Shown: one piece after another, positions 43,291 through 54,252 of the stretch
Numbering within the stretch: position 1 is the stretch's first letter
Layout of the letters: the number at the start of each line of letters is the position of its first letter
Assembly: GCF_002270055.1 (NCBI RefSeq)
Contig: NZ_NIBG01000017.1
Coordinates: forward strand, 1 to 64,000
Direction: 5' to 3'
Origin: Anaeromicrobium sediminis
GTDB taxonomy: Bacteria; Bacillota; Clostridia; Peptostreptococcales; Thermotaleaceae
DNA length: 64,000 nt
Translations under genes and position numbers: made by a program
The notes under the pieces: generated by a model
What the model was told of the DNA's origin: nothing
The model's input: only the letters and a program-made list of their open reading frames with translations
Databases searched by the model: none

Positions 43291-44562
<1,272 letters not shown>

Positions 44563-44563
<1 letters not shown>

Positions 44564-45045
44564 TATTCGTCCTCCTTTCTGCCAAAAATCCTCATATAAT
44601 AAGCTTTATCATTAAACAGATTAGTACCTAATATTACTATCTTAATAAGCACTAATCCTATTATTACCCCAATTACATTTAAATAATCCGCCTTAATTGC
44701 CACATATAAAACTAATCCAGTTATTATGTATCTAAGAAAATATCTACTTGTGGCATATACTTGAGCTTGTCTTGGTTCCATCTCAGATGCCTTTTCCAGT
44801 GTCATAGCTAATAATCTGAAGTTTAGCATTCCTATACTCGTTCCAAATATTAAAGCCATTATTATTGGCTTTGAATTATCAAATAATATAGTAGCTATTG
44901 TTCCTATAACAAATGCAGATAATATGGTATATTTATAAGTTTTAAGTTGCAAGTCTCTTGTAAAGGACAAAACTACACTTCCCTTCTTAAAGGATTTCCA
45001 TGTATCAAATGTCATTTTGATTGTTGTCTGAATTATTAATTGCAT
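44563..45045 (-). CDS. atpI: ATP synthase subunit I
   Basis: 160 residues with four hydrophobic helices, low conservation, in the standard atpI position. AtpI-type proteins help assemble the c ring. The start is uncertain: MTFDTWKSF ten codons in is a plausible alternative. Overlaps the atpB start by one base. Confidence 0.85.
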
Positions 45046-45134
45046 TAGTTAGAATTTATAGTCTTTTTTGTCATTTTTGAATACTGTAAATTTTTAGAAT
45101 TTTCACTTTGTAAGTTTAAGTCATTTGACATTTG

Positions 45135-45359
45135 TCACTTTTTTTCGTCAAAGTTTTTAATGATTAGTTTGTATATATTTAGAAAAGCACTTATTACTCC
45201 TAATATTATGAATATTAACATGAAGATATATCTAGTTCCTATTAATTGGTCTAAATACTTACCTATGTAGAGGCATCCACCTATGGTCACTACCATGATT
45301 ATGCCCAATTGACTTACTAATGTAAGATTTTTAAATATCTCTCTTTTCATTCTCTTCAT
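45135..45359 (-). CDS. atpZ: AtpZ/AtpI family small membrane protein
   Basis: 74 residues, two helices (LGIIMVVTIGGCLYIGKYLD and YIFMLIFIILGVISAFLNIYK) with a conserved polar D(Q)L between them. First gene of the atp operon, matching AtpZ, which with AtpI has been linked to cation supply and c-ring assembly. AGGGGA abuts the first ATG; an ATG three codons later is also possible. Confidence 0.82.
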   Translation of the reverse strand: MKRMKREIFKNLTLVSQLGIIMVVTIGGCLYIGKYLDQLIGTRYIFMLIFIILGVISAFLNIYKLIIKNFDEKK

Positions 45360-45372
45360 TCCCCTAGTAATA

Positions 45373-45400
45373 ATTATAGCACTTGTGTAAAAATATACAA
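45373..45400 (-). promoter_or_regulatory. predicted sigma-A promoter of the atp operon
   Basis: On the minus strand TTGTAT (45400-45395), a 16-base spacer and TATAAT (45378-45373). The predicted start would leave a very short leader before the atpZ ATG at 45359. Confidence 0.5.
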
Positions 45401-45746
45401 GACTCCTTTTGTTGACATATTTTTAACACAGTCTATGCAAATGTTTTCCTTTTGCAATTCACGAGGCTCAAACTTTCAAGTTGAATATCTTAATTTTTTA
45501 TTAACATGTCTATCATACCTTCCATAGAGTTTTAAAAAATAATTTTCTGTAACTGTTACCTAGACTTAGTTACACATAAATCTTATAATTCCATTATGTT
45601 TTTTTAAACATATGAATAAGTATTCATGAATTGAAGTTCATTTTGAAAACTTTTATATTTTTTTAACAATCATGATTATTTTTTAACCCCGATTAAATAA
45701 TTATAAAAAAAAGTTTTGAAAAAATTTTTTTTAAACTTTCAAAATT

Positions 45747-45777
45747 AAAAGTCCCATACATAGTATGGGACTTTTTT
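45747..45777 (-). terminator. terminator after CoA-transferase operon
   Basis: GTCCCATAC (45751-45759) pairs with GTATGGGAC (45763-45771) around ATA, flanked by A- and T-runs so it could work in both directions. Confidence 0.92.
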
Positions 45778-45782
45778 CTTTA

Positions 45783-46433
45783 TTATATTTCCATTTTCTT
45801 TAAGTTTTCAGAAATTATTAATTCTGCTTCTGTAGCATTTTTTACATCTTCAATTGAGAAGTCTGGATTAATCTCAAGAAGTACGATTCCGTCCTTAGTT
45901 ACTTCCATAACTCCCATTTCTGTAATAATCATATTAACTTGGTTTGCTGCTGTTAATGGTAATTTGCACTCTTTTAAGATCTTAGGTTTTCCCTTAGCAG
46001 TATGAGTCATAGATATAATAACCTTCTTAGCTCCTACAACTAAGTCCATAGCACCGCCCATTCCTGGAACCAATTTACCAGGAATCATCCAGTTAGCTAA
46101 GTTTCCTTTTTCATCTACTTGTAAGGCACCTAAAACTGTTACGTCCACATGGCCACCCCTAATAATAGAGAATGACATGGCACTATCAAAAAATGCAGCT
46201 CCAGGAACAGCTGTTACAGGCTGTCCTCCAGCATTCACAAGATCCATATCAGCATCTTCTGCTGCTGGTGCAGGTCCAAGACCTACGAATCCATTCTCAG
46301 ACTGTAATGTAACGTCCATATCAGATGGTATGTAATTAGCAACCATAGTAGGTAGTCCAATACCTAAGTTTACCACATCTCCATCATGTAATTCCTTTGC
46401 AACTCTTCTAGCTATAATTTCTTTAACATTCAT
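45783..46433 (-). CDS. atoA: 3-oxoacid CoA-transferase, beta subunit
   Basis: 216 residues. The catalytic Glu lies in the SENG motif: [17 protein letters not shown] (near residue 45). [19 protein letters not shown] and [18 protein letters not shown] are typical of AtoA/ScoB/CtfB. Forms a heterotetramer with the next gene (3 bp apart) to move CoA between acids; in this cluster acetoacetate produced by the BKACE enzyme is a likely acceptor. Acetate, butyrate or other acyl-CoA donors cannot be separated by sequence. Confidence 0.92.
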
Positions 46434-46436
46434 ATT

Positions 46437-47084
46437 CTACACCTCCACAATATAATCTACAAATAGGGCAGGAGTCATAACATCAGTAGCATCTATTTCA
46501 CCAATTTCTACTACCTTTTCTGCTCCTACTATAACTGTATCTGCAGCTGTAGCTATAAGTGGATTAAAGTTTCTAGTTGCTTTATTGAAATACAGATTAC
46601 CTTTTTTATCTGCTATTGAAGCTCCTACTAAAGCAATATCAGCTCTTAAAGGCTTCTCTAATAAGTATACCTTACCATCTACTTCAATCTTTTGCTTTCC
46701 TTCTTCTACTATAGTACCTACTCCTGTAGGAGTTAAAATTCCTCCAAGACCATTTCCACCAGCACGTACTCTTTCAGCTAGTGTTCCTTGTGGTACTAAT
46801 TCACATTCTATTTCACCAGAATTCATTTGAACTCCTACTTCAGGATTTAATCCTACATGTGATGCAATAACCTTCTTAACTTGTTTGCTCACTACAAGTT
46901 TTCCAACTCCTCTATCTGGCCATCCTGCATCATTAGCAATAATAGTTAAATCTTTTACACCTTTTTCTACTAAAGCATCCATAAATTTTTCTGGTGTTCC
47001 ACAAGCCATAAATCCACCAACCATAATAGTCATACCGTCTTTAATTAGATTCATAGCCTCTTCTAGTGTTGTAATTTTGCTCAT
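46437..47084 (-). CDS. atoD: 3-oxoacid CoA-transferase, alpha subunit
   Basis: 215 residues. N-terminal ISEEAMNLI-like start (TTLEEAMNLIKDGMTIMVGGFMACGTPE), the oxyanion loop and GTLAERVRAGGNGLGGILTPTGVGT are diagnostic of the AtoD/ScoA/CtfA family. Lies 3 bp upstream of atoA; a GGGGGTGTTTAT ribosome-binding site precedes it. Separated from the BKACE gene by about 400 bp containing palindromic repeats, so it may have its own promoter. Confidence 0.92.
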   Translation of the reverse strand: MSKITTLEEAMNLIKDGMTIMVGGFMACGTPEKFMDALVEKGVKDLTIIANDAGWPDRGVGKLVVSKQVKKVIASHVGLNPEVGVQMNSGEIECELVPQGTLAERVRAGGNGLGGILTPTGVGTIVEEGKQKIEVDGKVYLLEKPLRADIALVGASIADKKGNLYFNKATRNFNPLIATAADTVIVGAEKVVEIGEIDATDVMTPALFVDYIVEV

Positions 47085-47489
47085 ATAAACACCCCCGTTT
47101 TTATATTAATTAACAAATGTATTACAACTGTATTGCTACCTTATATATTGTAACACATTTATAGGAAAATGATTGCCCATTTTTAAAATTTATTTTGTTA
47201 ACTTTTTGTTTTTCGACTTAAGAAATTCCGTTATTCTACAATTCGTGACAAATATTGCATTTAATTATTACCTTCTAATAGCTAATAATTAAAAATACCT
47301 CTTCCCTAGATATTAATCTTTAATCATTAGCCATTAAATATGATGGAGACAGTTACTAAATTATATACTGAAGGAATATATAAAATACTAACGGTCCCCC
47401 TATACCATTTTAAAAGTCAAAGTTAATAACCTAAAGCCAACGTACAGTGTCCATTAATCCTAGGTCACTAACTCTTAACTAATAACCTA
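47085..47489. other. gap between atoD and BKACE genes
   Basis: 405 bp, AT-rich. It carries two repeat-like segments (47272-47341 and around 47418-47490) and possibly a promoter for atoDA. No gene seen. Confidence 0.55.
47272..47341. repeat. intergenic palindrome
   Basis: TAATAGCTAATAATTAAAA pairs with CTTTAATCATTAGCCATTA; 16 of 19 positions are complementary. Belongs with the GTTAGTCGTT/TTAACC palindromes. Confidence 0.7.
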
Positions 47490-48308
47490 TTATTTCATTC
47501 CTAATATTACTCTTGCTTCCTCCGGTGTAGCTATTTCTCTTCCAAATTCCTTAGCAATTCTAACTACCCTTTCTACCAGCATAGAATTAGAAGCTAATGT
47601 ATCCTTATCATACTTAATCACATCTTCAAGACCAGTTCTCACATGTCCACCTAACATAATTGCCATGGCAATCATATCTACTTGACATCTACCAATTCCA
47701 GATACGGAGAATGTGGATCCTGCTGGTAGAGATTCTACCATGTGAAGTAGGTTCTTTGGAGTACCAGCTATAGAACCAGGCACATTCATAACTAGGTTAA
47801 AGTGTACAGGTGCCTTTAATATACCCTTTTTAATAAATCTCTTCGCATTATCAATCATACCTACATCAAAGGCCTCAACCTCTGGCTTAAGATTATTATC
47901 ATACATCTTAGTTGCTAAAGCCTTAATTAAGTCTGGTGAATTGGCATTTACACTTGTTGGGAAGTTTGAAGAACCAGTAGATAAACTTGCCATTTCAGCT
48001 CCAGGTATATCTAACATTTGACCTCTCCACTCAAGTGTATTTTCTCCACCACGAGCACCAGTAGACACTTGTCTTATAATATCCACATTTTCTTCATCTA
48101 ATTTTCTTAGAACCTCTTCAAATAATTCCCTTTTACTTGTTGGTTTTTCATTTTCATCCCTTACATGTATGTGTGCCACAGCAGCACCTAATTCTCTACA
48201 TTTTTTAATATCCTCTACTATTTCATCAATTGTAACAGGAGTATGAGGATTTAATTCCTTTGTAGGAACATTTCCAGTATGTGCAATAGTTATAACTAAT
48301 TTCTCCAT
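47490..48308 (-). CDS. beta-keto acid cleavage enzyme (BKACE, DUF849)
   Basis: 272 residues, TIM-barrel Zn enzyme that condenses a beta-keto acid with acetyl-CoA to give acetoacetate plus a new acyl-CoA. Zn-site AAVAHIHVRDENEKPT (two His), STGARGG, PEVEAFDVGMIDNAKRF, NVPGSIAGTPKNL and GGHVRTGLEDVIKYDKDTLASNS align with Kce (3-keto-5-aminohexanoate cleavage enzyme) from lysine fermentation. The other lysine genes (kdd, kal, aminomutases) are absent, so a different beta-keto acid is likely, presumably the product of the adjacent aminotransferase. Confidence 0.9.
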   Translation of the reverse strand: MEKLVITIAHTGNVPTKELNPHTPVTIDEIVEDIKKCRELGAAVAHIHVRDENEKPTSKRELFEEVLRKLDEENVDIIRQVSTGARGGENTLEWRGQMLDIPGAEMASLSTGSSNFPTSVNANSPDLIKALATKMYDNNLKPEVEAFDVGMIDNAKRFIKKGILKAPVHFNLVMNVPGSIAGTPKNLLHMVESLPAGSTFSVSGIGRCQVDMIAMAIMLGGHVRTGLEDVIKYDKDTLASNSMLVERVVRIAKEFGREIATPEEARVILGMK

Positions 48309-48317
48309 AATAGCCTC

Positions 48318-48400
48318 CTTATTCGTTATGGGTTTGGAGTTTAGGGTTAGGGGTTTAAATCAAACTCTTATCCCTAAACCCTAATCTCTTAACCTCTTTC
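48318..48400. repeat. intergenic palindrome, TTAACTC flavour
   Basis: GAGTTTAGGGTTAGGGGTTT faces CCCTAAACCCTAATCTCTTA between the aminotransferase and BKACE genes. Confidence 0.8.
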
Positions 48401-49767
48401 TATATTTCGTATCCTAATTCTTTACAAGTCTTTTGAATTCCAGCTTCAAAGGAAGCGAATAACTCATCTACTTCTTCTTTTGTTATATTAACTGGCGGTG
48501 CTATTAGGCAGTGATCTCCTCTTACTCCATCTACACTTCCTCCACCAGGATAAATCACTAAACCTTCTTCTAAACAATGATTAGTTAACATACCCTTTAC
48601 TGCTTTTTTAGTGTCAAATGGTTCTTTAGTGTCTTGATCTTTAACGAACTCAATACCAATCATTAATCCCTTACCTCTAATATCTCCTACGATAGGATAT
48701 TTGTATAGAGTTTGGATTTTTTCCATTAAGTAATCTCCCATAACAGCAGCATTTTCTACAAATCCTTCTCTTTCCATTATTTCAATTACTTTGTGAGCAA
48801 TTCCACAAGATAATGGATTTCCTGCATAAGTGTGTCCATGAACAAAGTGTCCAGAACCTTCTACCATTATTGTATTAAATATTTTATCGCTAGCAATACA
48901 AGCTCCCATTGGAGTATATCCACAGCTCATTCCCTTAGCTGTAGTTATAATATCTGGAACTACATCAAAATGCTCCATCGCAAATTTCTTACCAGTTCTA
49001 CCAAATCCAGCCATTACTTCATCTACTATTAATAATACGTCATACTTATCACAAATAGCTCTAACCATTTCAAAGTAAGTCTTAGTAGGGTGAACTCCTG
49101 GAGCTGCAGATCCTACAACTGGCTCCGTAATAAATGCAGCCACATTATCTGCTCCAATTCTTATGATTTCAGCTTCTAGAGCCTCAGCAGCCTTTATACT
49201 AGTTTCTTCTAATGTTTCACATCCCCATGGATTTCTATAGTGATAAAATTGTGGAATCTTAGGGAAATTAATTAACATTGGGTCATATATTTTTCTTCTT
49301 CCAGTGATACCTGTCATTGATAATGATCCCATAGTATTTCCATGGAATGAGTTCCACTTAGAGATAACTTTCCACTTAGAGCTTGATGCTCCATCTCTTT
49401 CAACAAAGTATTGTCTTGCCATTTTAATAGCAGTTTCAGTAGATTCAGATCCACCAGATACGAAGTATACATGGTTTAAATCTCCTGGTGCCCACTCTGC
49501 AACTTTAGCAGCACAATCTTCAATAGAGTCTACTGTCCATCTAGAAAGATGTGTAAATGCAATTCTTTCAACATGCTCTTTAACATACTCTGCCACTTCT
49601 TTATTTCCATGTCCAATATTAGCTACAGCTGATCCTGAACAACCATCTAAATATTTCTTTCCCTTTTCGTCATAAAGGTAAACACCTTCGCCTTTTACGA
49701 TTTTTGGATAATGCCAATTTTGATTTCTGTAAAACACATGATTTTTAGGTGCCTTATTAAGACTCAT
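48400..49767 (-). CDS. class III (omega/beta) aminotransferase
   Basis: 455 residues, PLP-dependent. YLDGCSGSAVANIGHGN near residue 40, FVSGGSESTETAIKMARQY near 103, FHGNTMGSLSMTG near 142, VDEVMAGFGRTGK near 248 and the Schiff-base Lys in DIITTAKGMSCGYTPMGA near 280. Class III enzymes act on amino groups distant from the carboxylate, such as beta-alanine, beta-amino acids or GABA. Placement next to a beta-keto acid cleaving enzyme suggests it makes that keto acid. Co-acceptor probably pyruvate or 2-oxoglutarate. Confidence 0.9.
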   Translation of the reverse strand: MSLNKAPKNHVFYRNQNWHYPKIVKGEGVYLYDEKGKKYLDGCSGSAVANIGHGNKEVAEYVKEHVERIAFTHLSRWTVDSIEDCAAKVAEWAPGDLNHVYFVSGGSESTETAIKMARQYFVERDGASSSKWKVISKWNSFHGNTMGSLSMTGITGRRKIYDPMLINFPKIPQFYHYRNPWGCETLEETSIKAAEALEAEIIRIGADNVAAFITEPVVGSAAPGVHPTKTYFEMVRAICDKYDVLLIVDEVMAGFGRTGKKFAMEHFDVVPDIITTAKGMSCGYTPMGACIASDKIFNTIMVEGSGHFVHGHTYAGNPLSCGIAHKVIEIMEREGFVENAAVMGDYLMEKIQTLYKYPIVGDIRGKGLMIGIEFVKDQDTKEPFDTKKAVKGMLTNHCLEEGLVIYPGGGSVDGVRGDHCLIAPPVNITKEEVDELFASFEAGIQKTCKELGYEI

Positions 49768-49832
49768 AATTAACTCCCCTTTTTTGTTATTAATTTTATA
49801 ATTTTATTAATTTATTATCTTTTTAAATAACT

Positions 49833-49907
49833 TGCAATGAGTCACAGGTGACGAGTAATTCATTCATATATTTTTCACCCTTCACCTGTATCCCATTACC
49901 ATACTGA
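49833..49907. repeat. intergenic palindrome, CACCTGT flavour
   Basis: GAGTCACAGGTGACGAGTAA faces TTCACCCTTCACCTGTATCC (core CACAGGTGA/TCACCTGT) between the symporter and aminotransferase genes. Confidence 0.65.
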
Positions 49908-49963
49908 CATAATATGTACGGATGGTCAATAACCATCTCAAATTATTGTACCATATTGATTAA

Positions 49964-51244
49964 CTATGCAACTCTCTTAACAGGAATACTCTCCTTGTCA
50001 AATGTCTTTCTATCTAAGTCACCTTCCATACCAGCAACTGCTGTAGCAACTACTAAGTCTCCTAAAGCATTAGTTGAAGTATGTGCTTGGTCTACTATTC
50101 TATAGATTCCTGCAACTAGGGCAATACCATCTAGTGGAAGACCCATTCCCGTAAGTAATGCAATACTGATTAAAAGACCAACTTGTGGTACAGCTGCACA
50201 ACCAACTGATAATAATGTAGCTTGAAGTACTAGCATAGCTTGCATTTTAAAGCTTAAAGGAATTCCATAAATTTGTGCTGCAAATAAAACTATTATTCCA
50301 AAGTAAATTGATGTTCCATTCATATTAGCTGTAGCTCCAAGTGGTAATATGAAACTTGCATTTTCTTTTGGTAATCCCAATTCTTCATCTGCAATTCTCA
50401 TTGTTACAGGTAGTGTTGCCATAGAACTACAAGTACTAAAGGCAACTAACCAAGTTTGGAATGCTTTTTTATAGAATTTGATTGGGTTTACCTTTGCAAA
50501 TACCATTAATACTAATGTATAAATCACAGCGATATGAATAAATGATGCTAAGTAATCTGCTAGGATGAACTTTGATATTGGTCCAAAGATTTTTAAACCA
50601 AACTTTGTAGTAGCCTTAGCCATTAGTCCGAAAACTCCATATGGTGTAAACTTAACTACAATGTCTGTAATCTTAAACATTACTTCAGATACCTTATCTA
50701 CTAAATCAATAAGTTCTTTTCCCTTTTGGCCCATCATTAAAAGTGCTGCTCCAATGAATACACTAAATGAAATTATATGAAGCATTTCACCCTTTGCCAT
50801 AGATTCAACTGGGTTTTTAGGGAAGAAGTTTAAAATAGTATCAGCTATTCCTGGAAGTTCTTTAACCTCTACTGCCTGTGCCGCTTCTCCTAATTGGATT
50901 CCAGCTCCTGGCTGAATAATATGTGCCACAATTAATCCTATTGTAACAGCACAGAATGCCGTTGCAAAGAATAAGGCAACTGCTTTAATACCTATACTTC
51001 TTAGTTTTTTCAAGTCCCCTAGGTTGGCAACTCCACTAATTATTGAGAAAAATACTAAAGGTACAACTACCATTCTAATTAGTCTTAAGAATAAATCCCC
51101 TAATAAAGCAAATACTGGAACAATCTTAGCTATAGTTGCATTGTCTTCGCCACCCATTGTACTGAATATAAATCCAACAGTAGCCCCTAAAATCAATCCT
51201 ATAAAGATTTTGTGAAATAATTTTAACTTAAATTTCTGTTTCAT
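49964..51244 (-). CDS. dicarboxylate/amino acid:cation symporter (DAACS)
   Basis: 426 residues with about eight helices and two re-entrant loops of the GltPh fold. Family motifs: SFSTCSSMATLPVTMR-like serine-rich loop (VAFSTCSSMATLPVTM), LPLGATANMNGTSIYFGIIVLFAAQIYG (the NMNGT motif) and DQAHTSTNALGDLVVATAVAG. Members take up glutamate, aspartate or C4 acids with Na+ or H+. The NMDGT motif is NMNGT here. Upstream of the aminotransferase, so it probably imports the amino acid that the module degrades; the family favours an acidic one. Confidence 0.92.
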   Translation of the reverse strand: MKQKFKLKLFHKIFIGLILGATVGFIFSTMGGEDNATIAKIVPVFALLGDLFLRLIRMVVVPLVFFSIISGVANLGDLKKLRSIGIKAVALFFATAFCAVTIGLIVAHIIQPGAGIQLGEAAQAVEVKELPGIADTILNFFPKNPVESMAKGEMLHIISFSVFIGAALLMMGQKGKELIDLVDKVSEVMFKITDIVVKFTPYGVFGLMAKATTKFGLKIFGPISKFILADYLASFIHIAVIYTLVLMVFAKVNPIKFYKKAFQTWLVAFSTCSSMATLPVTMRIADEELGLPKENASFILPLGATANMNGTSIYFGIIVLFAAQIYGIPLSFKMQAMLVLQATLLSVGCAAVPQVGLLISIALLTGMGLPLDGIALVAGIYRIVDQAHTSTNALGDLVVATAVAGMEGDLDRKTFDKESIPVKRVA

Positions 51245-51427
51245 TTGTCTCCTCCTTAGTGTCTATATTAATGACTAACAATTCTTTATCTCCTCTTTAG
51301 AAGTGAAGATAAGAAATTGTAGAATCACTAGATGGATCAGCTAAAATTCAGAATACCTTCTTAATTTTAGTTTCATCCTGGTTAAGTATATAGTGCTTAT
51401 GAATTTGTGGCAAAATTCACAGGCAAT

Positions 51428-51490
51428 AAAAAAATCCACTGAAGAGACATAATCATAAATATAATTATATCATCCTCACTGGATTCTACT
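51428..51490 (-). terminator. terminator-like hairpin after DUF3870 gene
   Basis: On the minus strand AATCCAGTGA pairs with TTCAGTGGATT across a 40-base AT-rich loop and is followed by TTTTTTT. It suggests that the DUF3870 gene is a separate transcript from the symporter gene. Confidence 0.6.
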
Positions 51491-51535
51491 TACTATTAAT
51501 TATGCGGAAACATAATCTTGCAAATAAAGCAGCGC

Positions 51536-51871
51536 TTAATATAAAGTTTTCTTCCATTCCAAATACTTTAAGTATGTGGATTTAGTTGCAACACAAAGGG
51601 CCTTTTGGGCCATTCCATGATAACGTTTTTTTATTATTTCTAACAAATTGTCTATACCATTTTTTTGAAGATCATATCCAACAAATATACTTTTTAAAAA
51701 TTGTCTAGCTTCTTGTGTAAGTAAGGTGCAGGATACATCTTCTATAATTTCCGTATCTGGATTTATAATCATTCCTAAACCTACAACCTTATGAACGTGA
51801 GCTGCTGATATGTCTGATGGTAATTTAGCATAAGATATGAAATACACGGAATTACTACTATACTGTTCCAT
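51536..51871 (-). CDS. DUF3870 family protein
   Basis: 111 residues, no signal peptide or membrane helix. LKSIFVGYDLQKNGIDNLLEIIKKRYHGMAQKALCVATKSTYLKY is what I recall as the hallmark C-terminal half of DUF3870 (SIFVGK..., RY.G..QKA..VA). Function unknown. It lies upstream of a symporter/aminotransferase/BKACE/CoA-transferase module and may be a small regulatory or ligand-binding partner of it; that is inference from position only. The family call is from memory and unverified. Confidence 0.7.
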   Translation of the reverse strand: MEQYSSNSVYFISYAKLPSDISAAHVHKVVGLGMIINPDTEIIEDVSCTLLTQEARQFLKSIFVGYDLQKNGIDNLLEIIKKRYHGMAQKALCVATKSTYLKYLEWKKTLY

Positions 51872-52061
51872 TAATCTTCACTCACTATCTTTTTAAGTAA
51901 ATTGTACTCCATTTGCCTAATACTATCAATACCTAATATTTGTATATATAGGAGCTTAATACCTATTCTCATTTGTTTTTCTCCTGCATACTTTTGTTTA
52001 TTCACTTTTTTGATATTTTTCATTTAGATTCTAAACTTTTAGTTTTAGCCCACATCTCTCA

Positions 52062-53180
52062 TTAATTTTCAAAGTATTCTTTTATAGCTTCAACTATTCT
52101 CTTACATGCATTTCCATCCCCATAGGGATTTACTGCATTTGCCATTTCTTTATATGCCTCATTATCTTCTAATAATTTCTTAGTCATTTCATATACTCTA
52201 TTTCTTTCTACCCCTGCCATTTTTACAGTTCCCGCGTCCACAGCTTCTGGTCTTTCCGTTTCAGTACGAAGAACCAATACAGGTTTACCAAGGGCTGGTG
52301 CTTCTTCTTGGATACCACCTGAGTCTGTAAGTATTAAATCACATTTGTTTATCAAGTTAGCAAATGGTTCATAGTCAAGGGGTTCTATTAGATTTACCCT
52401 TGGGACTTGTCCTAATATGGAGTTTGCTAAATCTCTCACCTTTGGATTTAAATGTACAGGGAATATTACTTCCACATTTTCAATTTCCTGCACAACGTCC
52501 TTTATGGCACTAAATATATCTTCCATAGGTTGTCCTAAGTTCTCACGTCTATGACAAGTTAATAGAATTGTCTTTTTATTTTTATAATCTATATTGTTAA
52601 GTACTTCATTCTCAAATACATAGTCTTCCTTAATAACCTTAAACAATGCATCTATAACTGTATTTCCTGTTAAATATATGTTTCCCTTTATTCTTTCGTT
52701 TAAAAGATTATGCTCATTTCCCTTTGTTGGACAAAAATGCATATCTGCTAAATTACCCGCTAAGGTTCTATTCATCTCTTCTGGATAAGGAGAGTATTTA
52801 TTCCCACTTCTTAAACCAGCTTCCACGTGGCCTATTTTCACTTTATGGTAAAAAGCAGCTAAAGATCCTGCCAAGGTAGTAGTAGTATCTCCATGAACTA
52901 GTATAATATCTGGCTTTGCTTCTTTTATTACATTATCTAAACCTTCTAATGCCCTTGCCGTTATTTGAGTTAAGCTTTGGCCTGGTTTCATTATATTTAA
53001 ATCATAGTCTGGTTTTATACTAAATAATTCTAATACTTGATCTAGCATTTCCCTATGCTGAGCTGTAACACAAACTATGGACTCCATAGATTCTTCCTTT
53101 TCTATTTCCTTAACTAGTGGGGCCATTTTTATGGCTTCTGGCCTAGTTCCAAATATACTCATAACCTTTATTGTCTTCAT
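52062..53180 (-). CDS. mnaA: UDP-GlcNAc 2-epimerase (backbone copy, MnaA)
   Basis: 372 residues, non-hydrolysing epimerase producing UDP-ManNAc. IKVMSIFGTRPEAIKMAPL, VHGDTTTTLAGSLAAF, GHVEAGLRSGNKYSPYPEEM, TCHRRENLGQP and LTDSGGIQEEAPALGKPVL are intact. Adjacent to tagO and between upp and the atp operon, the place of mnaA in B. subtilis, so this is the housekeeping copy for wall glycopolymer linkage units. The similarity to the locus copy is high along the entire length. Confidence 0.95.
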   Translation of the reverse strand: MKTIKVMSIFGTRPEAIKMAPLVKEIEKEESMESIVCVTAQHREMLDQVLELFSIKPDYDLNIMKPGQSLTQITARALEGLDNVIKEAKPDIILVHGDTTTTLAGSLAAFYHKVKIGHVEAGLRSGNKYSPYPEEMNRTLAGNLADMHFCPTKGNEHNLLNERIKGNIYLTGNTVIDALFKVIKEDYVFENEVLNNIDYKNKKTILLTCHRRENLGQPMEDIFSAIKDVVQEIENVEVIFPVHLNPKVRDLANSILGQVPRVNLIEPLDYEPFANLINKCDLILTDSGGIQEEAPALGKPVLVLRTETERPEAVDAGTVKMAGVERNRVYEMTKKLLEDNEAYKEMANAVNPYGDGNACKRIVEAIKEYFEN

Positions 53181-53198
53181 TTCATATCCCCCTAATTA

Positions 53199-53227
53199 AA
53201 AACCAGGATTTTATCAACCCTGGTTAT
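53199..53227 (-). terminator. hairpin between tagO and mnaA
   Basis: AACCAGG (53201-53207) pairs with CCTGGTT (53219-53225), followed on the minus strand by TTTTTAA. The stem includes the tagO stop region. It may attenuate rather than fully block read-through to mnaA. Confidence 0.6.
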
Positions 53228-54252
53228 TTGTTTTTGCCTCTTATAGATTCTTTTCCTATACTTCTATATAGCGTTGTAGTTAAAAAGAATATTATTATAA
53301 AACAATATGCAAATTGATTATTACTTATTAAAACTGCACTTGCACCTAGTAGGGCGCTTATTAGATATAGGGTTAAAACTGTTCTCCTTTGCCCTAATCC
53401 TCTAGATAACAATCTATGATGTAAATGTCCCTTATCTGCTTCAAATATGGGTTTTCCATTTAAAAATCTTCTTATAATTGCAAATGCCGTATCAAATATA
53501 GGTAAACCTAATGCAAGAACTGGTACTATTGTAGCTATGGCTGTAGCACCCTTTAATACTCCTAAAATAGATATGGCAGATAAAATATAACCTAAGAATA
53601 ATGATCCTGTATCTCCCATAAAAACCTTAGCAGGATTAAAGTTATAAGGTAAAAATCCTATAGCTGAACCTGCAACAGATAAAGTAAGCACCATAACAAC
53701 TATATTGTTTGGATTCTGAATATAAGTTATATATGCTAAGGATAATGCAGCTATAGATGCTACTCCTGCTGCTAATCCATCTAATCCATCTATTAAATTT
53801 ACTGTATTAGTTATTCCTACAACCCATATTATAGTTACAGGTATGGATAAATATAGAGGAAATCCAATCCATTTATCTGTTATTGGGTTACCAAAACCTT
53901 CAATGCTAATTCCCACACTAACTAATATGACAGCTGCTATTAGCTGACCCATAAATTTTTGCTTAGGAGATAATGGCTTAGTGTCATCCATAATTCCCAT
54001 AATAACTATGACAGTACTTCCTGCAATTAATCCTATTATCTTTTTATCTATAGGAAGAGTTACTAATATACTAACTACAAATCCTAAAAATATGGCTAAT
54101 CCACCCATCCTTGGAATAGGCTTTTTATGAACTCTACGGTTGTCCTTTGGCACATCTATAGCTCCTATTTTGTGAGCTAACTTAATAGCAAAAGGAGTCA
54201 TAATACATGACACAATAAATGCCACCAACAAACTTATCATATATTTATACAT
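53224..54252 (-). CDS. tagO: undecaprenyl-P GlcNAc-1-P transferase (TagO/WecA)
   Basis: About 342 residues, ten-helix MraY-family phosphoglycosyltransferase that starts wall teichoic acid or related glycopolymers. Catalytic motifs: GIMDDTKPLSPKQKFMGQ, NTVNLIDGLDGLAAGVA and KGHLHHRLLSRGLGQRR, with FMGDTGSLFLGYIL. Start set at MYKYMISLL (AGGAGTGTTACA upstream) rather than ten codons earlier. Operon-like with mnaA, which supplies UDP-ManNAc for the second linkage sugar. Confidence 0.94.
   Translation of the reverse strand: MYKYMISLLVAFIVSCIMTPFAIKLAHKIGAIDVPKDNRRVHKKPIPRMGGLAIFLGFVVSILVTLPIDKKIIGLIAGSTVIVIMGIMDDTKPLSPKQKFMGQLIAAVILVSVGISIEGFGNPITDKWIGFPLYLSIPVTIIWVVGITNTVNLIDGLDGLAAGVASIAALSLAYITYIQNPNNIVVMVLTLSVAGSAIGFLPYNFNPAKVFMGDTGSLFLGYILSAISILGVLKGATAIATIVPVLALGLPIFDTAFAIIRRFLNGKPIFEADKGHLHHRLLSRGLGQRRTVLTLYLISALLGASAVLISNNQFAYCFIIIFFLTTTLYRSIGKESIRGKNK

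Follow-up and report, generated by a model that had tools for sequence, protein, structure and literature searches.

In Anaeromicrobium sediminis a group of genes lies between the atp genes and mnaA, and the question arises what these genes do together. The window analyzed here comprises 64,000 nt, positions 1–64,000 of contig NZ_NIBG01000017.1 (C17) of the organism's own genome (G000), and coordinates given without a further label refer to it. The interval 45783–51871 holds six intact open reading frames (ORFs), all on the minus strand, which Pfam and NCBIfam profile scans assign to a DUF3870 protein, a symporter of the SDF/DAACS type, a class III aminotransferase, BKACE and the two subunits of a CoA-transferase. 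A preliminary description of the window had grouped these genes, without the DUF3870 gene, as a candidate pathway for fermenting a beta-amino acid; the genes it named are indeed intact, lie on the minus strand at the coordinates it gave and match their Pfam families strongly. We consider it probable, at roughly 60%, that the locus is a cassette for the catabolism of some beta-amino acid, but not of lysine.

Conservation of the aminotransferase-BKACE pair

A BKACE orthologue of at least 57% identity was found in 41 of the 297 genomes of the order (A. sediminis included; one orthologue is partial, at 62%), and the next matches listed after the orthologues are Kce-like paralogues of at most 51% identity. 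In a class-wide search of 341 genomes, four matched the window BKACE at E<=1e-85, two within the order and two beyond it. We compared the neighborhoods of BKACE in 40 genomes of the order and in 32 named loci, which after deduplication yielded 55 loci whose BKACE reaches an identity of 55% or more. DUF3870, symporter and CoA-transferase A genes were counted as neighbors when they lay within six genes of BKACE on the same strand. Twelve loci were left out of the count: the paralogues L098–L107, as well as L047 and L075, where an antisense ORF displaced BKACE in gene picking and where the aminotransferase is nevertheless present.

The aminotransferase gene is located immediately upstream of BKACE in 46 of the 55 loci. 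DUF3870 accompanies BKACE in 41 of them, the symporter in 21 and CoA-transferase A in 19. The site between mnaA and atpI, to which the preliminary description had drawn attention, holds the pair in the window and in 10 other loci of the order; L059 and L068 have it between tagO and mnaA instead. Away from the atp site it follows a ftsH-like gene (named by eye), adjoins a TAXI-TRAP transporter (L108) or stands beside other genes. Because the aminotransferase precedes BKACE directly in most loci, and also at sites away from atp and mnaA, gene order indicates that the two genes of the window locus are a true conserved cassette and not a chance neighborhood, to which symporter and CoA-transferase would be optional additions. 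The remark that B. subtilis has nothing comparable at this site agrees with our control set of 14 genomes, in which BKACE was found only in Deinobacterium chartae.

Two groups of more distant loci were set aside. The Bacillales loci L099–L107 (42–45% BKACE identity) are nearer to Kce and have no such aminotransferase beside BKACE. Pairs on Rhodobacterales plasmids (L117–L119), in which the BKACE and aminotransferase genes overlap, were not counted, their BKACE being 21–23% identical and devoid of a Glu at position 143, as far as an alignment at that identity is sure.

Gaps of 405 bp between BKACE and CoA-transferase A and of 291 bp between DUF3870 and the symporter could hold separate promoters, so that a single transcript for all six genes is not assured. 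The window contains 59 matches to sigma-54 sites with at most two mismatches, where 41 would be expected; not one is exact, and the two upstream gaps are free of them. It is conceivable, if unlikely, that only aminotransferase, BKACE and DUF3870 belong together and that the symporter and CoA-transferase of the window are neighbors from other pathways. The two gaps do set these genes apart, and of the 13 loci at or beside the atp site only 4 have the symporter and 9 the CoA-transferase genes. However, the same symporter subtype stands beside the pair elsewhere (L080–L082, L084–L090, L092, L093, L097), and DUF3870 adjoins this subtype in a separate locus, L173.

The BKACE differs from Kce of lysine fermentation

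In an alignment of 61 BKACE sequences (not deduplicated) H46, H48, E143, R226, E230 and D231 are kept in all 61; we take these residues to be the zinc ligands and catalytic residues. For BKACE15, E171 and R254 are discussed as catalytic bases (PMC11961710), and E143 and R226 of the window protein would be their equivalents judging by an equal offset of 28 in numbering rather than by alignment. The AlphaFold model (pLDDT 93) superimposes on Kce of C. Cloacamonas acidaminovorans (2y7f) with Z 40.3 and a root mean square deviation of 1.4 over 269 residues, and 3no5 likewise gives Z 40.3. The window BKACE is predicted to cleave a beta-keto acid with the help of acetyl-CoA, yielding acetoacetate and an acyl-CoA.

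The fold, the zinc and catalytic residues and the acetoacetate-forming logic together with a CoA-transferase are shared with Kce, whereas Val occupies position 14 in all but one of the 61 sequences, that is in 60, and Ile in the remaining one. In Kce this position is a Glu, which is described as holding the amino group of the substrate (PMC10470551). The partners differ as well, kdd and kal in the case of Kce and a class III aminotransferase in the window. With 306 bits the window BKACE also stays below the cut-off of the Kce model (382), and with 251 bits below that of the 3-oxoadipate model NF053568 (350).

The genome encodes three BKACEs. The same contig carries a kce gene, with 459 bits at a cut-off of 382, together with kal, with 197 bits at a cut-off of 160, at C17:69032-70260 (L004:5533-6761), which is 5 kb past the end of the window and some 17 kb away from the cassette. 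Contig C36 carries kdd (281 bits, cut-off 200), kamA (623 bits, cut-off 525) and a match to the alpha subunit of lysine 5,6-aminomutase (917 bits). The preliminary description had called Kce-type lysine breakdown unlikely on the ground that kdd and kal were missing. That absence was an artefact of the window edge; the conclusion itself is upheld by the failed Kce model, by Val14 and by the separate kce-kal pair, and we rejected a role of the window BKACE in lysine fermentation. Judged from its sequence, it is not the Kce of that pathway.

The third BKACE belongs to a carnitine degradation cluster on C9 (L005:9208-17638) with carnitine dehydrogenase (434 bits, cut-off 414) and CoA-transferase A/B; two further ORFs of the same cluster were named by eye, one of 533 aa as transporter-like and the other as acyl-CoA synthetase-like. 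It resembles the window locus in combining BKACE with CoA-transferase A/B, but the beta-keto acid comes from carnitine dehydrogenase and not from an aminotransferase, and residues of the pocket region differ. Since the genome has its own separate carnitine cluster, carnitine was dismissed as substrate of the window locus.

A proposed route from beta-amino acid to acetyl-CoA

The aminotransferase passes NF005685 (PRK07483), a family without assigned substrate, with 505 bits at a cut-off of 485. D249 and K278 are kept in 55 of 55 sequences (not deduplicated) and would be the residues binding pyridoxal 5'-phosphate (PLP). We propose a beta-amino acid:2-oxoglutarate aminotransferase; it is the pairing with BKACE that suggests the specificity for beta-amino groups. 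In L045 and L049 the gene directly upstream of the aminotransferase encodes glutamate dehydrogenase (the one of L045 was modelled, with 723 bits at a cut-off of 536), and this position fits 2-oxoglutarate as amino acceptor. Both CoA-transferase subunits match Pfam CoA_trans, and subunit A falls below the acetate CoA-transferase alpha equivalog NF007394 (308.2 bits, cut-off 315). The sequence of subunit B contains a SENG motif, the site of the catalytic Glu.

In the proposed route the beta-amino acid would enter through the symporter (in relatives through a different transporter), and the class III aminotransferase would pass the beta-amino group to 2-oxoglutarate, leaving a beta-keto acid, while glutamate dehydrogenase would regenerate the acceptor. 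BKACE would cleave the beta-keto acid with acetyl-CoA, giving acetoacetate as well as an acyl-CoA, from which the CoA-transferase would then shift CoA onto acetoacetate; a thiolase would cleave acetoacetyl-CoA to two acetyl-CoA. This order of import, transamination, BKACE cleavage and CoA transfer had been outlined before; it is chemically sound and is in line with the CoA-transferase A found near BKACE and with a thiolase gene within the cluster in L084 and L093. The gene families, the conserved pairing, the conserved catalytic residues and the distinctness from Kce can be read directly from the sequences; every reaction of the route, its direction and its substrate are inferred, the steps being drawn from the chemistry of the families.

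The order of the two central steps could be different. BKACE might start the route with a beta-keto acid supplied from elsewhere, so that the aminotransferase would follow and act on a beta-amino acyl-CoA. This is the case for Kat of Cloacamonas, a PLP aminotransferase of a modified lysine pathway that is described as accepting CoA esters exclusively (PMC3149608). We regard this order as highly improbable: Kat is HemL-like according to the same source and the window enzyme passes PRK07483 (a comparison by description), and the genome has kal, whose step Kat takes over. The direction could also be reversed, with BKACE condensing an acyl-CoA with acetoacetate and subsequent amination giving a beta-amino osmolyte. 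The BKACE reaction is indeed reversible in an in vitro assay (PMC11961710). Such a biosynthetic role appears very remote, given the symporter and the acetoacetate-type CoA-transferase found next to the pair in the window, and given that glutamate 2,3-aminomutase offers a simpler way to beta-glutamate.

Transport and the nature of the substrate

The nearest solved relatives of the symporter are aspartate transporters, and the presence of a DAACS transporter had been taken as a hint at an acidic substrate. The binding residues do not support this argument. Y381, H388 and N309 align to D390, R397 and D312 of GltPh and are invariant in 15 of 15 aligned sequences; the window symporter lacks Arg397, Asp390 and the NMDGT motif of the glutamate/aspartate type and has His388, Tyr381 and NMNGT instead, so that the carboxylate-binding Arg is replaced by His, its partner Asp by Tyr and the Asp of the motif by Asn. 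Asp385 is kept in this subtype and is presumably the amine-binding Asp.

Most likely the substrate belongs to the beta-amino compatible solutes that methanogens and halophiles contain. Among these we tentatively place beta-glutamate first, followed by beta-glutamine or N-epsilon-acetyl-beta-lysine. The suggestion of beta-glutamate goes back to the preliminary description; it retains its place as first single candidate through the contexts of DUF3870, the neighboring glutamate dehydrogenase and the glutamate 2,3-aminomutase of the genome, even though the DAACS argument by itself finds no support. An acidic beta-amino acid would fit DUF3870 beside glutamate genes, the aminomutase, the aspartate-transporter relatives and the Arg-type SDF protein that three divergent loci (L069–L071) carry instead of the window subtype. 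The neutral solutes beta-glutamine and N-epsilon-acetyl-beta-lysine would fit a symporter devoid of this Arg and a BKACE pocket with no clear cation specific to the group.

Glutamate 2,3-aminomutase is encoded on C12 (L115:9518-10810; TIGR04368, 680 bits, cut-off 650), and the cell can therefore probably make beta-glutamate. Intracellular synthesis of N-acetyl-beta-lysine was rejected, no AblB passing the cut-off in the genome (32 bits vs 205); external N-acetyl-beta-lysine may still be taken up.

Beta-alanine has to be considered as well. Transamination would yield malonate semialdehyde, BKACE would convert it to acetoacetate and formyl-CoA, and CoA transfer would free formate, which would be the natural counterpart of a module of the synthetic CORE cycle. 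More than 20 BKACE homologues are reported to be active on malonate semialdehyde, and an E. coli selection strain grows in dependence on beta-alanine, a transaminase and BKACE (PMC11961710). So small a substrate would also suit the neutral-looking symporter site and the lack of group-specific pocket charges. On the other hand malonate semialdehyde is called a non-native substrate in the same source, and neither pyrimidine nor beta-alanine genes, for which no dedicated search was made, were noticed by eye next to the cassette. We judge beta-alanine distinctly unlikely.

DUF3870 as companion of the cassette

The DUF3870 protein gives an AlphaFold model (pLDDT 89) with no Foldseek match at E<=0.001 (the best being IscU, E 0.095), and its profile found nothing below E 0.5 among PDB sequences. 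The single paper found in the literature on DUF3870, on a Bacteroides lipoprotein domain, was of no help. In 53 of 148 genomes of the order there are 96 DUF3870 genes: 24 lie within 12 kb of a window-type BKACE, another 29 have a methylmalonyl-CoA mutase at most 8 kb away, and 43 are found elsewhere. The contexts of all of these 43 were called with BLAST, using a single modelled representative for each kind of neighbor and a range of three genes (the gene of L161 was not shown by gene picking): 14 stand by an MR_MLE protein, probably an L-Ala-D/L-Glu epimerase, 12 by D-glutamate cyclase genes and 4 by a succinate-type CoA-transferase, while 13 are unassigned. Thus 26 of the 96 adjoin glutamate-related genes and 33 the propionate module. 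In a tree of 86 DUF3870 sequences, only 7 of them of the mutase type, the cassette copies and six unassigned ones form one clade (48 tips, support 0.85), whose neighbors are the mutase-type copies (57 tips, 0.99).

DUF3870 thus appears to be an accessory that accompanies the cassette, glutamate-related genes and genes of the propionate module. From the neighborhoods L131–L174 it is possible that it marks amino-acid catabolism, often related to glutamate.

A possible link to methylmalonyl-CoA mutase

In six Tissierellia-type loci (L080, L083, L086–L089) the cassette is followed, without change of strand, by a methylmalonyl-CoA mutase gene, the contig of L083 starting at BKACE. In L086, which was modelled, mutase, epimerase, MmdA (912 bits, below the cut-off of 999) and the beta subunit of a Na+ pump were identified. 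Across the order 38 of the 41 genomes with the cassette have the mutase, compared with 87 of the 256 others, a difference that is confounded by family. We did not retain the mutase as partner of the cassette, given this confounding and the mere four genomes out of 341 that the class-wide search gave. Behind the association there could be succinyl-CoA as a product, malonyl-CoA decarboxylated by the MmdA complex, or simply the company that genes of amino-acid fermentation keep.

A succinyl-CoA product would arise if a substrate like 3-aminoadipate were transaminated to 3-oxoadipate and cleaved by BKACE to succinyl-CoA and acetoacetate, with the mutase/decarboxylase module leading on to propionyl-CoA and Na+ pumping. 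The mutase genes behind the cassette, their frequency in cassette genomes and the occurrence of DUF3870 in both modules point in this direction. Against it stand the failure of the window BKACE to reach the 3-oxoadipate model, the family bias in the genome counts and a gap of 232 bp ahead of the mutase in L086. We know of no natural source of 3-aminoadipate and hold this route to be highly unlikely.

For beta-glutamate, our first candidate, transamination would give 3-oxoglutarate, from which BKACE would form acetoacetate and malonyl-CoA. Complexes of the MmdA type can decarboxylate malonyl-CoA as a side activity. Energy might accordingly be gained via acetyl-CoA and, in some hosts, via Na+-pumping decarboxylation of malonyl-CoA by the neighboring MmdA-type complex; in this detailed form the route is doubtful.

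Observations that weigh against the proposed cassette

Several observations speak against a catabolic cassette for a beta-amino acid, or against an acidic substrate, and have to be set beside the above. CoA-transferase A is not found within six genes in 36 of the 55 loci, some of which end at contig edges. Among the nine loci without an adjoining aminotransferase, four (L076, L083, L091, L094) end at a contig edge, but in L056, L060, L072, L073 and L096 a contig end is no excuse; in L060 and L096 BKACE adjoins a TIGR00366-like transporter that stays below the model cut-off. The transporters disagree among loci, being of the His388 subtype, an Arg-type SDF protein or a TAXI-TRAP system, and the loss of the carboxylate-binding Arg from the symporter argues against a second carboxylate on the substrate. 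Likewise the BKACE alignment, considered by position, reveals no clear pocket cation specific to the group: R86 recurs in 3no5 and the carnitine-cluster BKACE, and the basic positions specific to the window group fall outside the presumed pocket loops (judged by alignment). The commonest context of DUF3870 outside the cassette is the mutase operon and not a glutamate gene. Glutamate 2,3-aminomutase passes its cut-off in 12 of 41 cassette genomes and in 47 of 256 others, no clear association, and was rejected as a genome-level partner. Finally, an amidase in L173 hints at an amide-bearing substrate, at one contig end only.

Two of these places hold further observations. At L173:6046-8519 DUF3870, a symporter of the His388 subtype and the amidase, of the nitrilase family and below every model cut-off, stand in a row that is cut by the contig end. 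In L072 and L073 the lone BKACE orthologue is divergent from aconitase-like, isocitrate-dehydrogenase-like and GntR-like genes (named by eye).

Layout of the locus and its surroundings

The features of the locus are listed in Table 1. The hairpin behind the last gene likely marks the 3' end of the cluster. A scan of positions 44000–54000 with Rfam gave no match.

Table 1. Position and family assignment of the features at the cassette locus.
Feature	Position	Strand	Assignment
DUF3870 protein, 111 aa	51536..51871	-	PF12986, 77.5 bits; sixth ORF, absent from the preliminary description
SDF/DAACS symporter, 426 aa	49964..51244	-	PF00375, 411 bits (cut-off 27.9)
Class III aminotransferase, 455 aa	48400..49767	-	PF00202 (Aminotran_3), 331 bits (cut-off 30.5)
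BKACE, 272 aa	47490..48308	-	PF05853, 302 bits (cut-off 24.8)
3-oxoacid/acetate CoA-transferase subunit A	46437..47084	-	TIGR02429, 239 bits (cut-off 128.5)
3-oxoacid CoA-transferase subunit B	45783..46433	-	TIGR02428, 323.5 bits (cut-off 243.55)
Palindromic terminator-like hairpin, 13-bp stem	45747..45775	.	directly past the stop codon of CoA-transferase B

Beyond the cassette an ORF for an ATP synthase c subunit of 194 aa (43291–43875) is apparently internally duplicated and adjoined by a second atpE-like gene, possibly a hybrid rotor of the Na+ type. Outside the window, L004:2540-4607 encodes a tandem pair of similar proteins of 324 and 331 aa, which resemble class II fructose-1,6-bisphosphatase. 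Contig C21 (L116:6341-13167) carries genes of ornithine fermentation, with 2,4-diaminopentanoate dehydrogenase and OrtB over cut-off and an aminomutase match.

Relation to known systems and biological meaning

The enzyme chemistry is already known elsewhere, and the combination is a variant of BKACE chemistry. In Pseudomonas, N6-acetyl-beta-lysine is reportedly degraded by transamination and subsequent cleavage of the beta-keto acid with CoA, as found by Ohsugi and Barker. The yod operon of B. subtilis combines the class III aminotransferase YodT with CoA-transferases, and we take YodT to be the nearest B. subtilis analogue. These systems differ from the window locus: the control set contains no BKACE in B. 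subtilis, and A. sediminis has no AblB-type acetyltransferase over cut-off. YodT is described as uncharacterised (PMC6522883). Kat, a 3-aminobutyryl-CoA aminotransferase, is the precedent for a 2-oxoglutarate-using aminotransferase in a BKACE pathway, as proposed for the window; it differs in being HemL-like and specific for CoA esters, the likeness being judged by description (PMC3149608). A clostridial BKACE devoid of Glu14 and accompanied by thiolase and CoA-transferase is described for phloroglucinol degradation in Clostridium scatologenes, the triacetate acetoacetate-lyase; its substrate, 3,5-dioxohexanoate, is however supplied by a dehydrogenase, and Trp occupies the position of Glu14 (PMC10470551).

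In the open literature, judged by title and the start of the abstract, we recognized no account of the cassette or of an anaerobic aminotransferase-BKACE route from beta-amino compatible solutes. The clostridia bearing the cassette presumably live in saline, oil-reservoir and digester settings. Beta-glutamate, beta-glutamine and N-epsilon-acetyl-beta-lysine accumulate in methanogens, which use them as osmolytes, and these pools are described as hardly turning over inside the cells (PMC1224877); accumulation of N-epsilon-acetyl-beta-lysine is described for Methanoculleus strains from high-ammonia digesters (PMC12776343).

In summary, the cassette probably serves for the uptake of a beta-amino acid and its breakdown to products at the level of acetyl-CoA. 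It is a test case for the specificity of BKACE, and DUF3870, a domain of unknown function, gains a first catabolic context. If the proposed reading is true, the cassette would be a testable set of genes for the anaerobic breakdown of beta-amino osmolytes, through which the beta-amino solutes of methanogens and halophiles would return to the anaerobic carbon and nitrogen cycle.

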